Assembly (NCBI GenBank): GCA_964017155.1
Contig: OZ024867.1
Location: 11,108,116 to 11,172,115, forward strand
Reading direction: 5' to 3'
From: Oasisia sp. SBJ-2009
Taxonomy: Eukaryota; Annelida; Polychaeta; Sabellida; Siboglinidae
DNA: 64,000 nt
Of the stretch, positions 26-63,933 are shown piece by piece (the first letter of the stretch is position 1; every line of letters begins with the position of its first letter). The translations under genes were made by a program, and so were the position numbers. The notes beneath the pieces were generated by a model. It was not told the origin of the DNA and searched no databases. It saw only the letters and a list, made by a program, of their open reading frames with translations.

Positions 26-67
26 ACGAAGTTCAAGGCACCAGCGTTGTAAAGAAGAAGAAGGGGG
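26..67 (+). CDS. Gene 1 linker micro-exon, Lys-rich
   Basis: Acceptor cttctttcag ends at 25 and the donor gtaagt starts at 68; 42 nt, phase 1-1. It codes [15 protein letters not shown] (first codon shared with the upstream exon), a hydrophilic lysine run closed by glycines. It resembles the 18414-18446 exon in acceptor sequence, composition and downstream intron. It shows that gene 1 continues to the left of the window. Confidence 0.6.
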
Positions 68-3000
68 GTAAGTAATTTAATCCTCTTTACATATCACAGT
101 TTAATGGACAGGCAAATTAATTTCACATTACACTGATATATAAATGTCATTGAACTGCAAGTAGGAAGCAAGGCGAATGTACGACAGGACAGAAACGTAT
201 CAACCTTAAAATGTATAGTACCGGAGAAGTTATAGTACGTGATTCACTAACAGTTTGCTATCGTAATATGAACATACACATCTGCTATCAAACATTTGTC
301 TGCAACCTTCTTCTAGTTCAAAAATATACATATTTTTGTTTCTAGTTTTAATTTTAGACAATTCCATAGTTGTTATAATTTTACATTCCATATGTATTCA
401 GCACATTCCACAAATGGTTGTATTTTCGACCCGTGTTAGGGACTTCGTGGTTCGACAGCATTGTGGCAGGGACAGAAATGTCATTCGTTCGCATTCGTTA
501 ACAAGCCTCAAACAGTGTGTGTGTGTGTGTGTGTGTGTGTGTGTGTGTGTGTGTGTGTGTGTGTGTGTGTGTGTGTGTGTGTGTGTTTGTGTGTGTGTGT
601 GTGTGTGTGTGTGTGTAATATGTATGTATATATATACATATATATATATATATATATATATATATATATATATATATATATATATATATATATATATATA
701 TATATATATATATATATATATATATATATATAATAGTTTAGTTCACTCTGAGCAATCATACAGATTGAAATAGGTACATAAAACATGCAAAGTATATTTG
801 TTACAATAGAGTGAAATAATATTAATTTAAGCCATTAATATAAATATAAAATTTATAATAAATGTACAGAATATATGAAATGTATCTATAAAACTAATTT
901 AAATAATTTAAGACATTAAAACATATTTTATGTGATTATTTAACTAAGCTCATTACAAAATAATATATACTTTAAACAATTAAAATAAAAAGATCTAAAG
1001 AATAACTTGAGGATGTTTTACTAGTTTTGTTATTACATTTTATAACTGCAAGTGTACTGTGAATTATGTTACAGCGATATTCAATGAGTTATGTACAAAA
1101 ACGTCGGACTGTGGAATTGAAAACGGCGAATGCTGGCATTCGAGAGAGTGTGGCTGGTCAGTGTGTTCTTGTCAGGAAAATCACATTTTGGTTGCCGTGG
1201 ATAGATGCGTACCAGGTAGGTCAGCACGTAGTTGAGGCAGTTTGTTGTTCTTTGTTGTGACACTACCGATAACAAAGTTACCTCTCTTTCTTGTGATGTG
1301 TTCATGCGAGACTCCAGAAGTGGAAGCATTTGTGCCTGCAATGAATTTAGACAAAAGATGATTAATTGTTTGCCGTACATTATGCACGTATTATAATGGT
1401 GAGAACATAGCTGGTCAGAACTAATTCCTGTAGCATTCTCATGTAGTACCCGGTTGTTGATTATTGGTGCATTTCAAAGCCTAAAGTTAACATAAGTATT
1501 ATATTGGTGCCTGGAATGGTAGCAATTGACTTCCTGGACAATTCTTTGTTTGGAGTGGAGGGCATTGGTGAACTGGTGCCTGGAATGCATTTAAACCAAA
1601 GGCGAATGATTGTTTGCAATACATTTTGCATATAATTAATGTTGGTACACATTATACAAGTAGTTTTATAATCTACTAATACAGGGGCTAAAACATTGTT
1701 TATAATTTATATTAGTTCCGAAGTTAACGTAATTGGTTCATGGATTGTATTTAAGGGGTGACGTTTATATTAGTTGTTTATTTGTTCTGGTTTCAGGGTT
1801 AGTGGTTTTCAAAGCATCTGTATCAGGCTTGCATTATTATATTATTATATTGCATTATATTATGTTGTATTTAGTATGCTGTTACCTCAGTTTTATTATT
1901 ACTAGCATCATTGTATCAATTCTAATTATCGTGACACAACGACTAACACATATGCATATATCAAGCCGCTAGATTAACAGTTCTGACGTCGGCATAAAGT
2001 ATGTATAAGCTGTTAGACGTTCTGGTCATTGAATTAGTGAGGTCCATCGTATGGGTAATGTTATAATAGACTAAAAGACTATTATAATTAAAATAGAACC
2101 AACAAATATTGGTTTTTAAAAGTAACGTCATACGGTGGCAGTGACACACGATCCTAAGATGATCGTGGTCTTCCTCGCCCTTTACTTACATATGGCAACA
2201 TAGTTAGGTGTACATAGATGATAGTATTCAGTAGCATTGAACACCTATCCATGTCAACTGTTTCAGCACAAACATGCAGCACATTAAGGATATAGTATTC
2301 GTGTACACGCTATCAAAATAAAAACATACGTTACCCTCATCCCTTAATATTAACCAAAACTGGTTTTATGAAACCCTGTTGCAAGAATACCTATAATATG
2401 AAAAATCCGAAATAGGTGTCGACTTATGACAGACTGTGGATTGATATTTTCTGATGGTATCTTGAAAACATAACTTTTAGTACACCGAGTAACGTATCTT
2501 GAACTAGCCAACGAATATCATTGATATTTCATGGAATTGTTCTTTGCAACATACACACACTCTCTCTCTCTCTTTCTCACACACACACACATACACACAC
2601 ACACACGCACGCACGCACACACACACACACACACACACACACACACACACATACACCTACACCTACACACATATTACTCCTTCGGTTTTTCACACTAGAT
2701 GCGGTCAGCGGCCCGAATTCTTGATTTCCAAAATGTTCAGTCCTGGGCATCCTCCGGGGTGATCCGCAGTTCCTGCCTATCCCTGGGGACGCGATCCATC
2801 CATCTCCCTCTTGGTCTCCCTCTTGGTCTTTTTCCTGGCACTCTCATGTCAACAATTGCTCTCACTTCGTTGTTTTCTTCCATTCTCTGCATATGTCCAT
2901 ACAGCGTAGTCTTATTTCTCTTACTATCTCTTTTATGATTTAATGCGTAACGAGCTGACATAAATGTATGATTTAATCGACAAATTCATTTATGAGAGTT

Positions 3001-63500: not shown

Positions 63501-63933
63501 TTTTTAATCATAGAACATTGGCATCATGTTTTAAGCAAGTAATAAATAGTGTTGATACCTTGTGCACTTTGTCAATTGAAATGCCTGACTCTTAGACTAA
63601 GATGTGCAATGGTCTTATGGATTACCTAACAGTTTTCAATGCATAAAACCAATTCACCTTAATTTCCTCCCATTCATTATATATTATAATTTTTAAATAC
63701 ATAATTATACCAAACAGAAACAACGGCAACAAACTGATCGCGGTCCCACGCTAAAGTTCACTGCGTCGCATTTTTATTGTTGATCAAACATTATTACAAA
63801 TGTCAACAAACAAAAGTACCTGATGTACATAAAACTTTGCGGATAGGTTTGTCACTACAAAGAGAGCATACCAAGTTGTTGCCACACAAGTCCCTTCTCT
63901 CTTGGCAGGGTGCGTGAGCCTTCAGCGTGATTT
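60440..63933 (-). CDS. Gene 3: 3' half of a third family member (5' exons beyond window)
   Basis: Exons in transcription order: module D 63933-63820, linkers 62851-62828, 62528-62517 and 61490-61455, terminal exon 60522-60440. Introns align with gene 2 over most of their length except for CR1 copy A, which gene 3 lacks. All three linkers have intact splice sites, unlike gene 2, but the acceptor of the terminal exon is altered. Upstream modules A-C and the signal peptide are expected beyond 64000. Confidence 0.7.
60705..60846. repeat. (TG)71 microsatellite in gene 3 intron
   Basis: 142 bp of pure TG, replacing sequence that in gene 2 (about 33560-34000) holds the 5' part of the reverse-transcriptase fragment. 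Confidence 0.95.
60895..61370 (+). pseudogene. Decayed LINE reverse transcriptase in gene 3 intron
   Basis: Reads FIDFAKAFDTVNHN, then [13 protein letters not shown] and a further frame ending WLKINQRSLNIQN. It aligns with 34030-34520 of gene 2. The 5' part present in gene 2 is replaced here by a (TG)71 tract. Confidence 0.65.
61455..61490 (-). CDS. Gene 3 linker micro-exon (GGVKIGARSGESG)
   Basis: 36 nt between acceptor gtcttctttcag and donor gtaagtcg, phase 1-1. The acceptor has the same form as the Lys/Gly-rich linkers of gene 1 (26-67 and 18414-18446). Flanking intron resembles that of 62517-62528, indicating local tandem duplication. Confidence 0.6.
61505..61795 (+). pseudogene. LINE ORF2 C-terminal fragment in gene 3
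   Basis: Reads RRVNGRKDAKLSMLYKIANG, a stop, and later FFPNTIRLRNSLPQHV near 61670-61725, the typical C-terminal end of jockey/CR1-type ORF2. No counterpart was found in gene 2, so it may be a later insertion. Confidence 0.5.
61950..62240 (-). repeat. LINE-tail-like repeat shared by genes 2 and 3 (gene 3 copy)
   Basis: Aligns with 34680-34990 in the gene 2 intron, including the ACGTAAATaATaAaaT-type AT-rich section that follows. Confidence 0.4.
62517..62528 (-). CDS. Gene 3 linker micro-exon (12 nt)
   Basis: Acceptor cttctttcag and donor gtatat flank GCAAAGCCCAAG, coding GKAQ in phase 1-1. A 12-nt exon is near the lower limit for splicing. The gene 2 counterpart is 18 nt with a broken acceptor. 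Confidence 0.4.
62828..62851 (-). CDS. Gene 3 linker micro-exon (EPTVVDTDG)
   Basis: 24 nt between acceptor tctttttcag and donor gtaagtta, phase 1-1; conserved EPT start shared with genes 1 and 2. Confidence 0.62.
63820..63933 (-). CDS. Gene 3 exon, module D (5-Cys)
   Basis: Acceptor gcattttag, donor gtactt; 114 nt, 38 codons, phase 1-1. Spacing C-x6-C-x5-C-x2-C-x9-C with LCGNNLVC. Closest to gene 2 module D. Confidence 0.8.

Follow-up and report, generated by a model that had tools for sequence, protein, structure and literature searches.

A tandem family of predicted GPI-type surface proteins built from a four-exon cysteine-rich unit in the tubeworm Oasisia

What kind of protein is encoded by the small cysteine-rich exons that recur through a 64-kb window (the whole stretch of Oasisia DNA analysed, 64,000 nucleotides)? 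Analysis of the window revealed three genes, epsilon (plus strand), zeta (minus strand), and eta (minus strand). An earlier note, made from the letters alone, had proposed three linked genes with 13 module exons in the fixed order A-B-C-D, and the exon order and gene boundaries read from the sequence bear this out: all 13 module exons were recovered in that order on both strands, each preceded by AG and followed by GT, with a length that is a multiple of 3 and phase 1-1 boundaries. The three terminal exons were confirmed as well, with the common end ...VGYVSxxATVVML(Y/H) and a stop codon. Each gene would begin with a start exon (consensus MSNNxQ) and a signal-peptide exon, continue with at least one A-B-C-D unit and short, variable linkers, and close with a single terminal exon. 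The unit comprises four exons, with 24 cysteines as a rule, and the genes carry one to four units, perhaps more. Terminal exons follow short linker exons rather than the modules directly, and were found only 3' of the last unit (9 matches, two of them 0.3 kb apart in the gamma gene). Profiles of the modules and terminal exons gave 69 matches of at least 25 bits (60 modules and 9 terminal exons) in 324 kb including the window; the same profiles gave no match at that level in the reversed 324-kb sequence or in three shuffles, where the best score was 13.1 bits. A phase-1 AG and a reachable GT donor accompany 77 of the 80 module matches of at least 16 bits in the 364 kb read. Rfam and tRNA scans returned 0 matches. 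The gene anatomy is strongly supported by these sequence features; the anchoring, partner, and function considered below are predictions.

Zeta reads as a complete gene, with 242 residues and 24 cysteines encoded by eight exons that provide a signal peptide, one A-B-C-D unit, a linker, and a short hydrophobic GPI-type end:

56144..56161, minus strand: zeta exon 1, coding part MSNNEQ, phase-0 donor; same block conserved in each of the 6 genes read at their 5' end; spliced into the zeta model
53733..53790, minus strand: zeta exon 2, signal-peptide core; 6 genes have a homologue at their 5' end
53394..53534, minus strand: zeta module A; AG/GT, phase 1-1; in the spliced zeta frame
47807..47938, minus strand: zeta module B; AG/GT, phase 1-1; Pfam tested singly; in the spliced zeta frame
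42942..43094, minus strand: zeta module C; AG/GT, phase 1-1; in the spliced zeta frame
42227..42340, minus strand: zeta module D; AG/GT, phase 1-1; in the spliced zeta frame
40413..40442, minus strand: zeta linker exon; AG/GT, phase 1-1; in the spliced zeta frame
33257..33339, minus strand: zeta terminal exon, GPI-type end and stop; terminal-exon comparison; in the spliced zeta frame

The hydrophobic signal-peptide exon noticed earlier is real, but its ATG is probably not the start, because an in-frame TAG lies directly 5' of the exon in 4 of 6 genes. This ATG (53787) is not conserved and was rejected as a general start; the start is supplied by the upstream exon (MSNNEQ in zeta, 56161-56144). 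In 6 genes, the 5' end has a single copy of each of these two exons, and neither was found between units in readable DNA. Two zeta linker exons have lost their AG and would therefore be skipped, which leaves the frame unchanged.

Epsilon extends to the left of the window and contains four A-B-C-D units, with units 3 and 4 inside. The linker exon at 26-67 sits between two units of this gene, whose start is outside the window, which corrects the earlier note. The epsilon exons in the window are:

26..67, plus strand: linker exon between units 2 and 3; AG/GTAAGT, phase 1-1; flank like that of other linker exons
1075..1215, plus strand: unit 3 module A, 7 Cys; AG/GT, phase 1-1
3919..4050, plus strand: unit 3 module B, 6 Cys, EB-like; AG/GT, phase 1-1; Pfam tested singly
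4958..5107, plus strand: unit 3 module C, 6 Cys, EB-like; AG/GT, phase 1-1; EB in the joined protein
5973..6083, plus strand: unit 3 module D, 5 Cys, no Pfam match; AG/GT, phase 1-1
7397..7426, plus strand: linker exon; AG/GT, phase 1-1
7813..7842, plus strand: linker exon; AG/GT, phase 1-1
8454..8510, plus strand: likely linker exon; AG/GT, phase 1-1; no relative seen
8911..9045, plus strand: unit 4 module A; AG/GT, phase 1-1
11153..11284, plus strand: unit 4 module B; AG/GT, phase 1-1; P0001 alignment
13865..14017, plus strand: unit 4 module C, 82% identical to Ridgeia P0001; AG/GT, phase 1-1; EB above cut-off alone
14658..14768, plus strand: unit 4 module D; AG/GT, phase 1-1; P0001 alignment
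16091..16114, plus strand: linker exon DLTRADGD; matches DLTRSGDD of P0001
18414..18446, plus strand: linker exon of 11 residues; matches ELGQENFKEMS of P0001
20364..20446, plus strand: terminal exon, GPI-type hydrophobic end and stop; terminal-exon comparison; P0001 alignment

Units 3 and 4 were also considered as separate genes, which was rejected because signal-peptide, start, and terminal exons were all not found between them. Eta has a single A-B-C-D unit, whose A (with one cysteine lost), B, and C modules lie just beyond the window edge, so that the window holds the following parts:

63820..63933, minus strand: eta module D; AG/GT, phase 1-1
62828..62851, minus strand: eta linker exon; AG/GT, phase 1-1
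62517..62528, minus strand: eta linker exon of 12 bases; AG/GT, phase 1-1
61455..61490, minus strand: eta linker exon; AG/GT, phase 1-1
60440..60516, minus strand: eta terminal exon, GPI-type end and stop; terminal-exon comparison

Comparison with the Ridgeia piscesae hypothetical protein NP493_32g04005 (P0001) provided a proxy for transcript evidence on whether the exons might be joined otherwise or in other frames. This protein contains part of B, then C, D, two linkers, and the terminal exon, joined in the derived frames; 105 of 143 aligned residues are identical to the spliced epsilon end, with 0 gaps at the five joins. It ends like epsilon but differs in being a 145-residue prediction with neither signal peptide nor module A, and is therefore probably a fragment of a longer gene. 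Homologue searches yielded none among 12 candidates with joined zeta (an early model) and none among 417 with two-unit profiles, and a PDB sequence search gave nothing significant (best E 0.54). That the only database relative found is a fragment could be because the exons are small, symmetrical, and spread over 20 kb or more per gene. The accessible text of the Ridgeia genome paper does not describe such a family (PMC9921365).

The clustered family that had been proposed proved far bigger than three genes. The cluster, which includes the window, spans about 0.9 Mb and has no fewer than 33 A modules and 17 terminal-exon loci. Of the 37 module-A matches with E<=0.001, 33 fall within C14:10.42-11.18 Mb; of the 20 terminal-exon loci, 17 fall within C14:10.29-11.20 Mb. 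The epsilon terminal exon plus its 3' region has 21 matches in the genome. Decaying copies also occur, as seen in a D match with an internal TAG and in the cysteine lost from the eta A module. One C10 match to module D (E 2.1) is probably due to chance.

Analysis of the module copies indicated a nearly fixed cysteine frame: in 14 to 16 copies, 22 of the 24 cysteine columns never vary, and each of the remaining two is broken by a single copy. The dN/dS values over all columns were 0.58-0.94, that of module B being below 1 (2ΔlnL 12.95). After removal of cysteine and gappy columns, the values became 0.98 (A), 0.85 (B), 1.48 (C, 2ΔlnL 7.75), and 1.12 (D), with only the module C loops exceeding 1 by the likelihood test; a dN/dS near 1 also fits relaxed constraint. 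Partial, cut, broken, and not-yet-found modules were left out of the codon analysis (one partial A match, one B cut by an unreadable stretch, the short B of alpha unit 2, the D of gamma unit 3, and the broken D at C14:11193162), incomplete units contributed only the modules present, and pairs were excluded if they shared fewer than 100 codons or had an undefined dS. The rate tests cover the units known before those at 10.615-10.645 Mb were found. Comparison of the zeta and eta D exons revealed that about 31 of 86 nonsynonymous sites differ, versus 550 of 3264 sites in the alignable noncoding DNA nearby (Fisher p 3e-5); nonsynonymous and synonymous sites alone did not differ significantly in this exon (p 0.15). 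Over all four modules of this pair, dN (0.37) is about equal to dS (0.36), and 33 of 116 synonymous sites differ, more than in the nearby noncoding DNA, so mixed histories or gene conversion may account for part of the excess. When units 3 and 4 of epsilon are compared, exon divergence clearly exceeds that of the flanks in two of five blocks (C and D), is about equal in two, and is lower in one. The three window terminal exons differ little (dS 0.11-0.17, dN 0.06-0.16), and since their synonymous sites are alike too, homogenisation, and not strong constraint, may explain the similarity.

Hydropathy analysis showed a strongly hydrophobic core after the start exon in five of five spliced N-termini. 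At the C-terminus, SGAD...R followed by a 15-residue stretch, together with its relatives, forms a small-residue site, a polar spacer, and a hydrophobic end lacking a cytoplasmic tail, with 0-3 residues beyond the most hydrophobic 13 in nine copies and the Ridgeia protein. The secretion signal and GPI-like end postulated earlier are thus supported by residue pattern and hydropathy, and the predicted products may be GPI-anchored at the surface. The product would enter the secretory pathway and lose its signal peptide, the modules would form disulfide-locked folds, and the hydrophobic tail would give way to a GPI anchor, so that the modules would stand in a row on a stalk at the outer face of the cell. 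Since module and linker exons have phase 1-1 boundaries, the gain, loss, or skipping of a unit does not disturb the frame. With the cysteine frame nearly fixed and the loops changing freely, binding of varied partners is the most likely role, and the partners might be microbes (symbiont or pathogen, for recognition or defence) or other cells. GPI-anchored, diversifying recognition or adhesion proteins are the best reading, in which we infer transcription, GPI attachment, surface position, and the binding role. Judged from sequence, a tandem family of GPI-anchored A-B-C-D surface proteins that bind varied partners has a probability of about 0.5.

Module identity bears on the alternatives. The curated cut-off of Pfam EB (PF01683; IPR006149) is 24.3 bits, and the joined proteins exceed it, zeta with 39.2 bits (without exon 1 and the terminal exon) and epsilon units 3-4 with 35.5 bits (E-values 7.6e-10 and 1e-8). 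The EB assignment made earlier therefore holds for the joined proteins but not for every module singly. Among 10 of the 13 window modules tested alone (three A, two B, one C, four D), the sole C, from epsilon unit 4, passed with 25.4 bits, both B (15.0 and 21.5 bits) and all three A (13.3-15.1 bits) fell below the cut-off, and none of the four D matched any Pfam family up to E 10; the family further departs from PF01683 in the seven cysteines of A and the five of D. A genome search with EB, in which 150 of 211 candidates were scored, listed 29 matches, 4 in the cluster and 0 in the window, the latter because single exons score low and only that part was scored. The EGF check suggested earlier came out negative, with no EGF family listed up to E 1 for the two joined proteins or up to E 10 for the 10 single modules, under filters that drop most weak matches, and a plain EGF protein was rejected. 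This result weighs on the doubtful idea that the products are structural proteins of tube, cuticle, or matrix, with modules as cross-linked blocks and copy number as dosage. According to the accessible part of one paper, EGF-domain proteins have undergone significant expansion in vestimentiferans and are connected with the chitin tube (PMC8476170), but no EGF profile matches here, the GPI-type end would keep the protein on the cell, and loops that vary so freely do not suit a fixed cross-linking part.

It is unlikely that the modules form a surface-tethered array of small knottin-like protease or channel inhibitors for outward defence. Module A weakly resembles trypsin-inhibitor-like (TIL, E 0.03) and toxin profiles, but all non-EB Pfam matches are below cut-off and EB scores are equal or better. 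The P0001 model resembles short knottins (Foldseek probability 0.82 and 0.51), but no Foldseek E is below 1 (best 1.5) and model quality is low (mean pLDDT 53.9, above 80 only in residues 11-40, module C). Quite improbable is a family for gamete or self/non-self recognition that mating conflict has driven to diversify: the surface type, tandem array, and fast-changing loops would fit it too, but no gamete-specific feature was seen. Mostly passenger copies spread by tandem duplication under relaxed constraint, with no special binding role, would agree with dN/dS near 1 and decaying copies and linkers, but this is very unlikely, since drift would not keep the cysteine columns, splice sites, and frames.

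Tandem EB-gene expansion is already known. The flat oyster Ostrea edulis reportedly has a massive tandem expansion of genes with an uncharacterised EB domain (31 and 11 copies), for which, compared by description, the accessible text reports neither an A-B-C-D unit nor a GPI-type end, and no rate test (PMC9679249). Putative Anisakis proteins carry 3 to 5 EB modules each, often with Kunitz domains, and are upregulated in tissue PX; the accessible text mentions neither the A-B-C-D unit nor a GPI-type end (PMC5763927). In the literature searched, we found no account of the architecture seen here. Siboglinid genome papers, in their accessible parts, tally Toll-like and NOD-like receptors, lectins, and similar known classes; such tallies would miss a big family of this kind, fast-changing, probably surface-located, and without a standard immune domain. 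To our knowledge, how gutless tubeworms recognise their seawater-acquired symbiont is an open question. A tentative but possible extension of the binding-family reading is that these genes form a hypervariable family of lineage-restricted surface receptors in chemosymbiotic tubeworms, with one to at least four, perhaps eight, tandem units on a GPI stalk, which diversifies by unit gain or loss and rapid loop change and tells the symbiont from other seawater bacteria. If expressed in symbiont-facing tissue, the family would provide a concrete list of candidate receptors.

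Thirteen cysteine-module exons of four classes (three A, three B, three C and four D) are present in the window, and all 13 have AG/GT flanks and a length that is a multiple of three, which bears out the consensus splice sites and phase 1-1 boundaries described in the earlier note. They belong to the genes epsilon, zeta and eta, whose main features are as follows.

Features of the three family genes in the window
1075-6083, + strand: epsilon A-B-C-D unit, module exons in order
8911-14768, + strand: epsilon A-B-C-D unit, module exons in order
20364-20446, + strand: epsilon terminal exon, after linker exons 3' of the second window unit
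56161 (exon 1) to 33257 (stop), - strand: zeta gene, spliced reading frame
63933-63820, - strand: eta D module exon
60516-60440, - strand: eta terminal exon, bearing the stop

The eight exons of zeta give a complete 242-residue reading frame with an AG acceptor and a GT donor at every join, and the spliced product contains 24 cysteines. In two zeta linker exons (short exons between units or before the terminal exon), near 35302 and 34662 on the minus strand, the acceptor AG retained by eta is gone; because of the phase 1-1 boundaries, both can drop out with the frame unchanged. The number of cysteines per module is seven in A, six in B, six in C and five in D, making 24 per unit, and we guess that the unpaired cysteine left over in A might bond with that of D. 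The EB profile (PF01683) scored 39.2 and 35.5 bits on the joined proteins, above its cut-off of 24.3 bits. Pfam testing of single modules took in 10 of the 13 window modules: the one C module tested exceeded the EB cut-off (25.4 bits), two B and three A modules fell below it, and none of the four D modules matched any Pfam profile.

The two 4.8-kb LINE copies in the window (35523-40327 and 48057-52880, - strand) are 99.1% identical. The copy at 48-53 kb sits in the zeta A-B intron and carries two frames, of which one has a GDSL-lipase/esterase domain and the other, intact over 1012 residues, has endonuclease and reverse transcriptase; the copy at 35523-40327 has its second frame broken into two parts. 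A 73-base stretch at 47989-48061, located at the 3' end of one LINE, recurs alone at 55279-55351 with 98.6% identity, and this lone copy is perhaps a strongly shortened LINE copy or a carried-along flank. A tRNA-like box, ggttcgatccccggtaccgg, at 57700-57770 (- strand) resembles a SINE head by eye, and ARAGORN reported no tRNA there.

The sequence read covered 324 kb including the window, as well as 30 kb and 10 kb from other places in the genome. At a threshold of 25 bits, the module and terminal profiles gave 60 module and 9 terminal matches in the 324 kb, whereas reversing the sequence or shuffling it three times left no match (best 13.1 bits), a control that addresses chance and not independence, since the profiles were built partly from the same region. 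In all sequence read, splice signals in the expected phase flank 77 of 80 module matches of at least 16 bits; the exceptions are a 19-residue fragment, a B module interrupted by unreadable sequence, and an A match overrunning its acceptor. The order A-B-C-D is kept throughout the 324 kb, with some modules missing or unreadable.

Family genes along contig C14, which carries the window
alpha: at least three units, one of them, at the edge of the sequence read, without A
beta, zeta and eta: one unit each
gamma: three units, some modules not found or unreadable; two terminal-exon matches 0.3 kb apart
delta: three units, one with no C found
epsilon (window, + strand): four units, one terminal exon
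remnant (11.19 Mb): after eta

The start codon that the earlier note placed within the signal-peptide exon could not be upheld as a general start; an in-frame TAG lies directly before this exon in four of six genes. In all six genes whose 5' end was read, a conserved block is found 0.7 to 7.8 kb 5' of the signal-peptide exon (five genes aligned, the sixth matched by blastn; the 5' end of alpha lies beyond the sequence read, placing it outside these comparisons). The block reads ATG, four codons and CAG, then GTATTG, in the five aligned genes, indicating that the family start codon is supplied by an upstream exon 1 with the predicted consensus MSNNxQ, ending in phase 0. Exon 1 occurs once per gene at the 5' ends; beta, gamma, delta, epsilon, zeta and eta likewise each have one homologue of the signal-peptide exon at the 5' end, and neither exon was found between units in the readable DNA of the 324 kb. 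The motif TATATAAACCC, at 53843-53853 (- strand) upstream of zeta exon 2, lies about 50 to 65 bases 5' of the signal-peptide exon in four of the six genes, with exon 1 being 0.7 to 7.8 kb upstream, and perhaps marks a second promoter within intron 1.

The terminal exon has the consensus (AS)GADxVT...R, VVGYVSLxATVVML(Y/H) and a stop; minor substitutions occur (W and I in zeta). It is laid out as small residues, a polar spacer and about 15 hydrophobic residues with no tail. Small residues, a polar spacer and a tailless hydrophobic end form the pattern of a GPI signal; by residue pattern the terminal exon would thus fit such a signal, and this speaks against a membrane span of the ordinary kind. 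Synonymous sites, too, differ little among the three window copies (dS 0.11-0.17, dN 0.06-0.16), and this low synonymous divergence suggests that their likeness may come partly from homogenisation.

Searches of the genome (G000, 764 Mb in 33 contigs, with the window at C14:11108116-11172115 on a contig of 41.9 Mb) showed where further copies lie. The zeta A query gave 37 matches at E<=0.001 (66 up to E 10), of which 33 are at C14:10.42-11.18 Mb, three elsewhere on C14 and one on C7. Up to E 10, the zeta D query gave 17 matches, 15 on C14, one on C7 (76% identical) and one on C10, the last probably due to chance. The epsilon terminal exon with its 3' region matched 21 times at about 20 loci: 17 at C14:10.29-11.20 Mb, two on C14 near 21.4 Mb and one on C7, where A, B, C, D and the terminal exon stand in order. 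Since two pairs among the 17 loci lie less than 3 kb apart within the pair, the C14 cluster may comprise about 15 genes. A second small group at C14:21.39-21.45 Mb, 10 Mb off the main cluster, has two A modules and two terminal exons. Among the 29 EB-profile matches listed, 20 form a separate group at C8:7.21-7.27 Mb and two lie at C12:18.18-18.20 Mb.

The stretch at C14:10.615-10.645 Mb contains four modules each of A, B and C and three of D, in order, with a signal-peptide exon immediately before the first A. No terminal exon was found from this stretch down to 10.52 Mb, and four further module-A matches continue in that direction, so that there may be a single gene here with as many as eight units. 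Module distances within units are correlated (Mantel r 0.29-0.44; 11 units, with no more than 47 of 2000 permutations reaching such values), suggesting that units mostly duplicate whole.

Searching 5.77 billion proteins with a profile built from 11 units yielded 41 candidates, a single one of them at E<=0.001: NP493_32g04005 (E 1.2e-23), a hypothetical protein from Ridgeia piscesae. This species is a siboglinid, and the title of its genome paper (PMC9921365) calls it a vestimentiferan tubeworm. The protein consists of the last part of B followed by C, D, two linkers and the terminal exon; it shares 105 of 143 aligned residues with the spliced epsilon exons, with no gaps at the five joins, and the identity between its C module and C of epsilon unit 4 is 82%. 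Judging from this one protein, the genome that holds the window probably belongs to a siboglinid. The search reaches only relatives sharing short words, and the absence of others at E<=0.001 is therefore no proof of a tubeworm-restricted family.

Comparison of 14 to 16 copies per module revealed no variation in 22 of the 24 cysteine columns; the remaining two fail once each, in the eta A module and the cut-short alpha C match. Codon models on all columns, with kappa and tree shape fixed (slightly favouring the free model), gave dN/dS of 0.79 for A, 0.58 for B, 0.94 for C and 0.80 for D; B alone is distinguishable from 1, lying below it (2dlnL 12.95). Without cysteine and gappy columns the ratios are 0.98, 0.85, 1.48 and 1.12, which speak for the loops only, since dropping conserved columns raises the remaining ratio, and only C departs from 1, upward (2dlnL 7.75; p about 0.005 as a single test, among four). 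Pairwise dN/dS in the 14 lowest-dS pairs ranges from 0.78 to 1.34, and none of these pairs reached a bootstrap of at least 0.90 for dN > dS. In the zeta-eta D exon, nonsynonymous change exceeds that of nearby alignable noncoding DNA (p 3e-5) and does not significantly exceed that at its own synonymous sites (p 0.15); across the four zeta-eta modules the synonymous rate is also above the noncoding rate. Between epsilon units 3 and 4, exons differ more than flanks in C (0.35 vs 0.20) and D (0.41 vs 0.27), about equally in B and the linker, and less in A (0.39 vs 0.52). There is good support for loops that change freely inside a disulfide frame that hardly varies; positive selection probably acts on C and may act on A, B and D.

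The titles and abstract openings listed for EB modules or domains and for tubeworms contained no description of this architecture, and "EB domain" does not occur in the main texts of the siboglinid genome papers PMC8476170, PMC8789280, PMC9921365 and PMC10192322. The nearest case in that literature is the flat oyster Ostrea edulis, in which EB genes have expanded in tandem (PMC9679249). The chief alternative to a role in recognition or adhesion is a structural part in the tube, because EGF-domain proteins are reported as expanded in vestimentiferans (PMC8476170). The gene anatomy predicts proteins that would be secreted, disulfide-rich and probably GPI-anchored, from clustered and diversifying genes. 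Recognition and defence families of many animals look secreted, disulfide-rich, anchored, clustered and diversifying, and on this resemblance we give a role of the family in recognition or adhesion an even chance (about 0.5).
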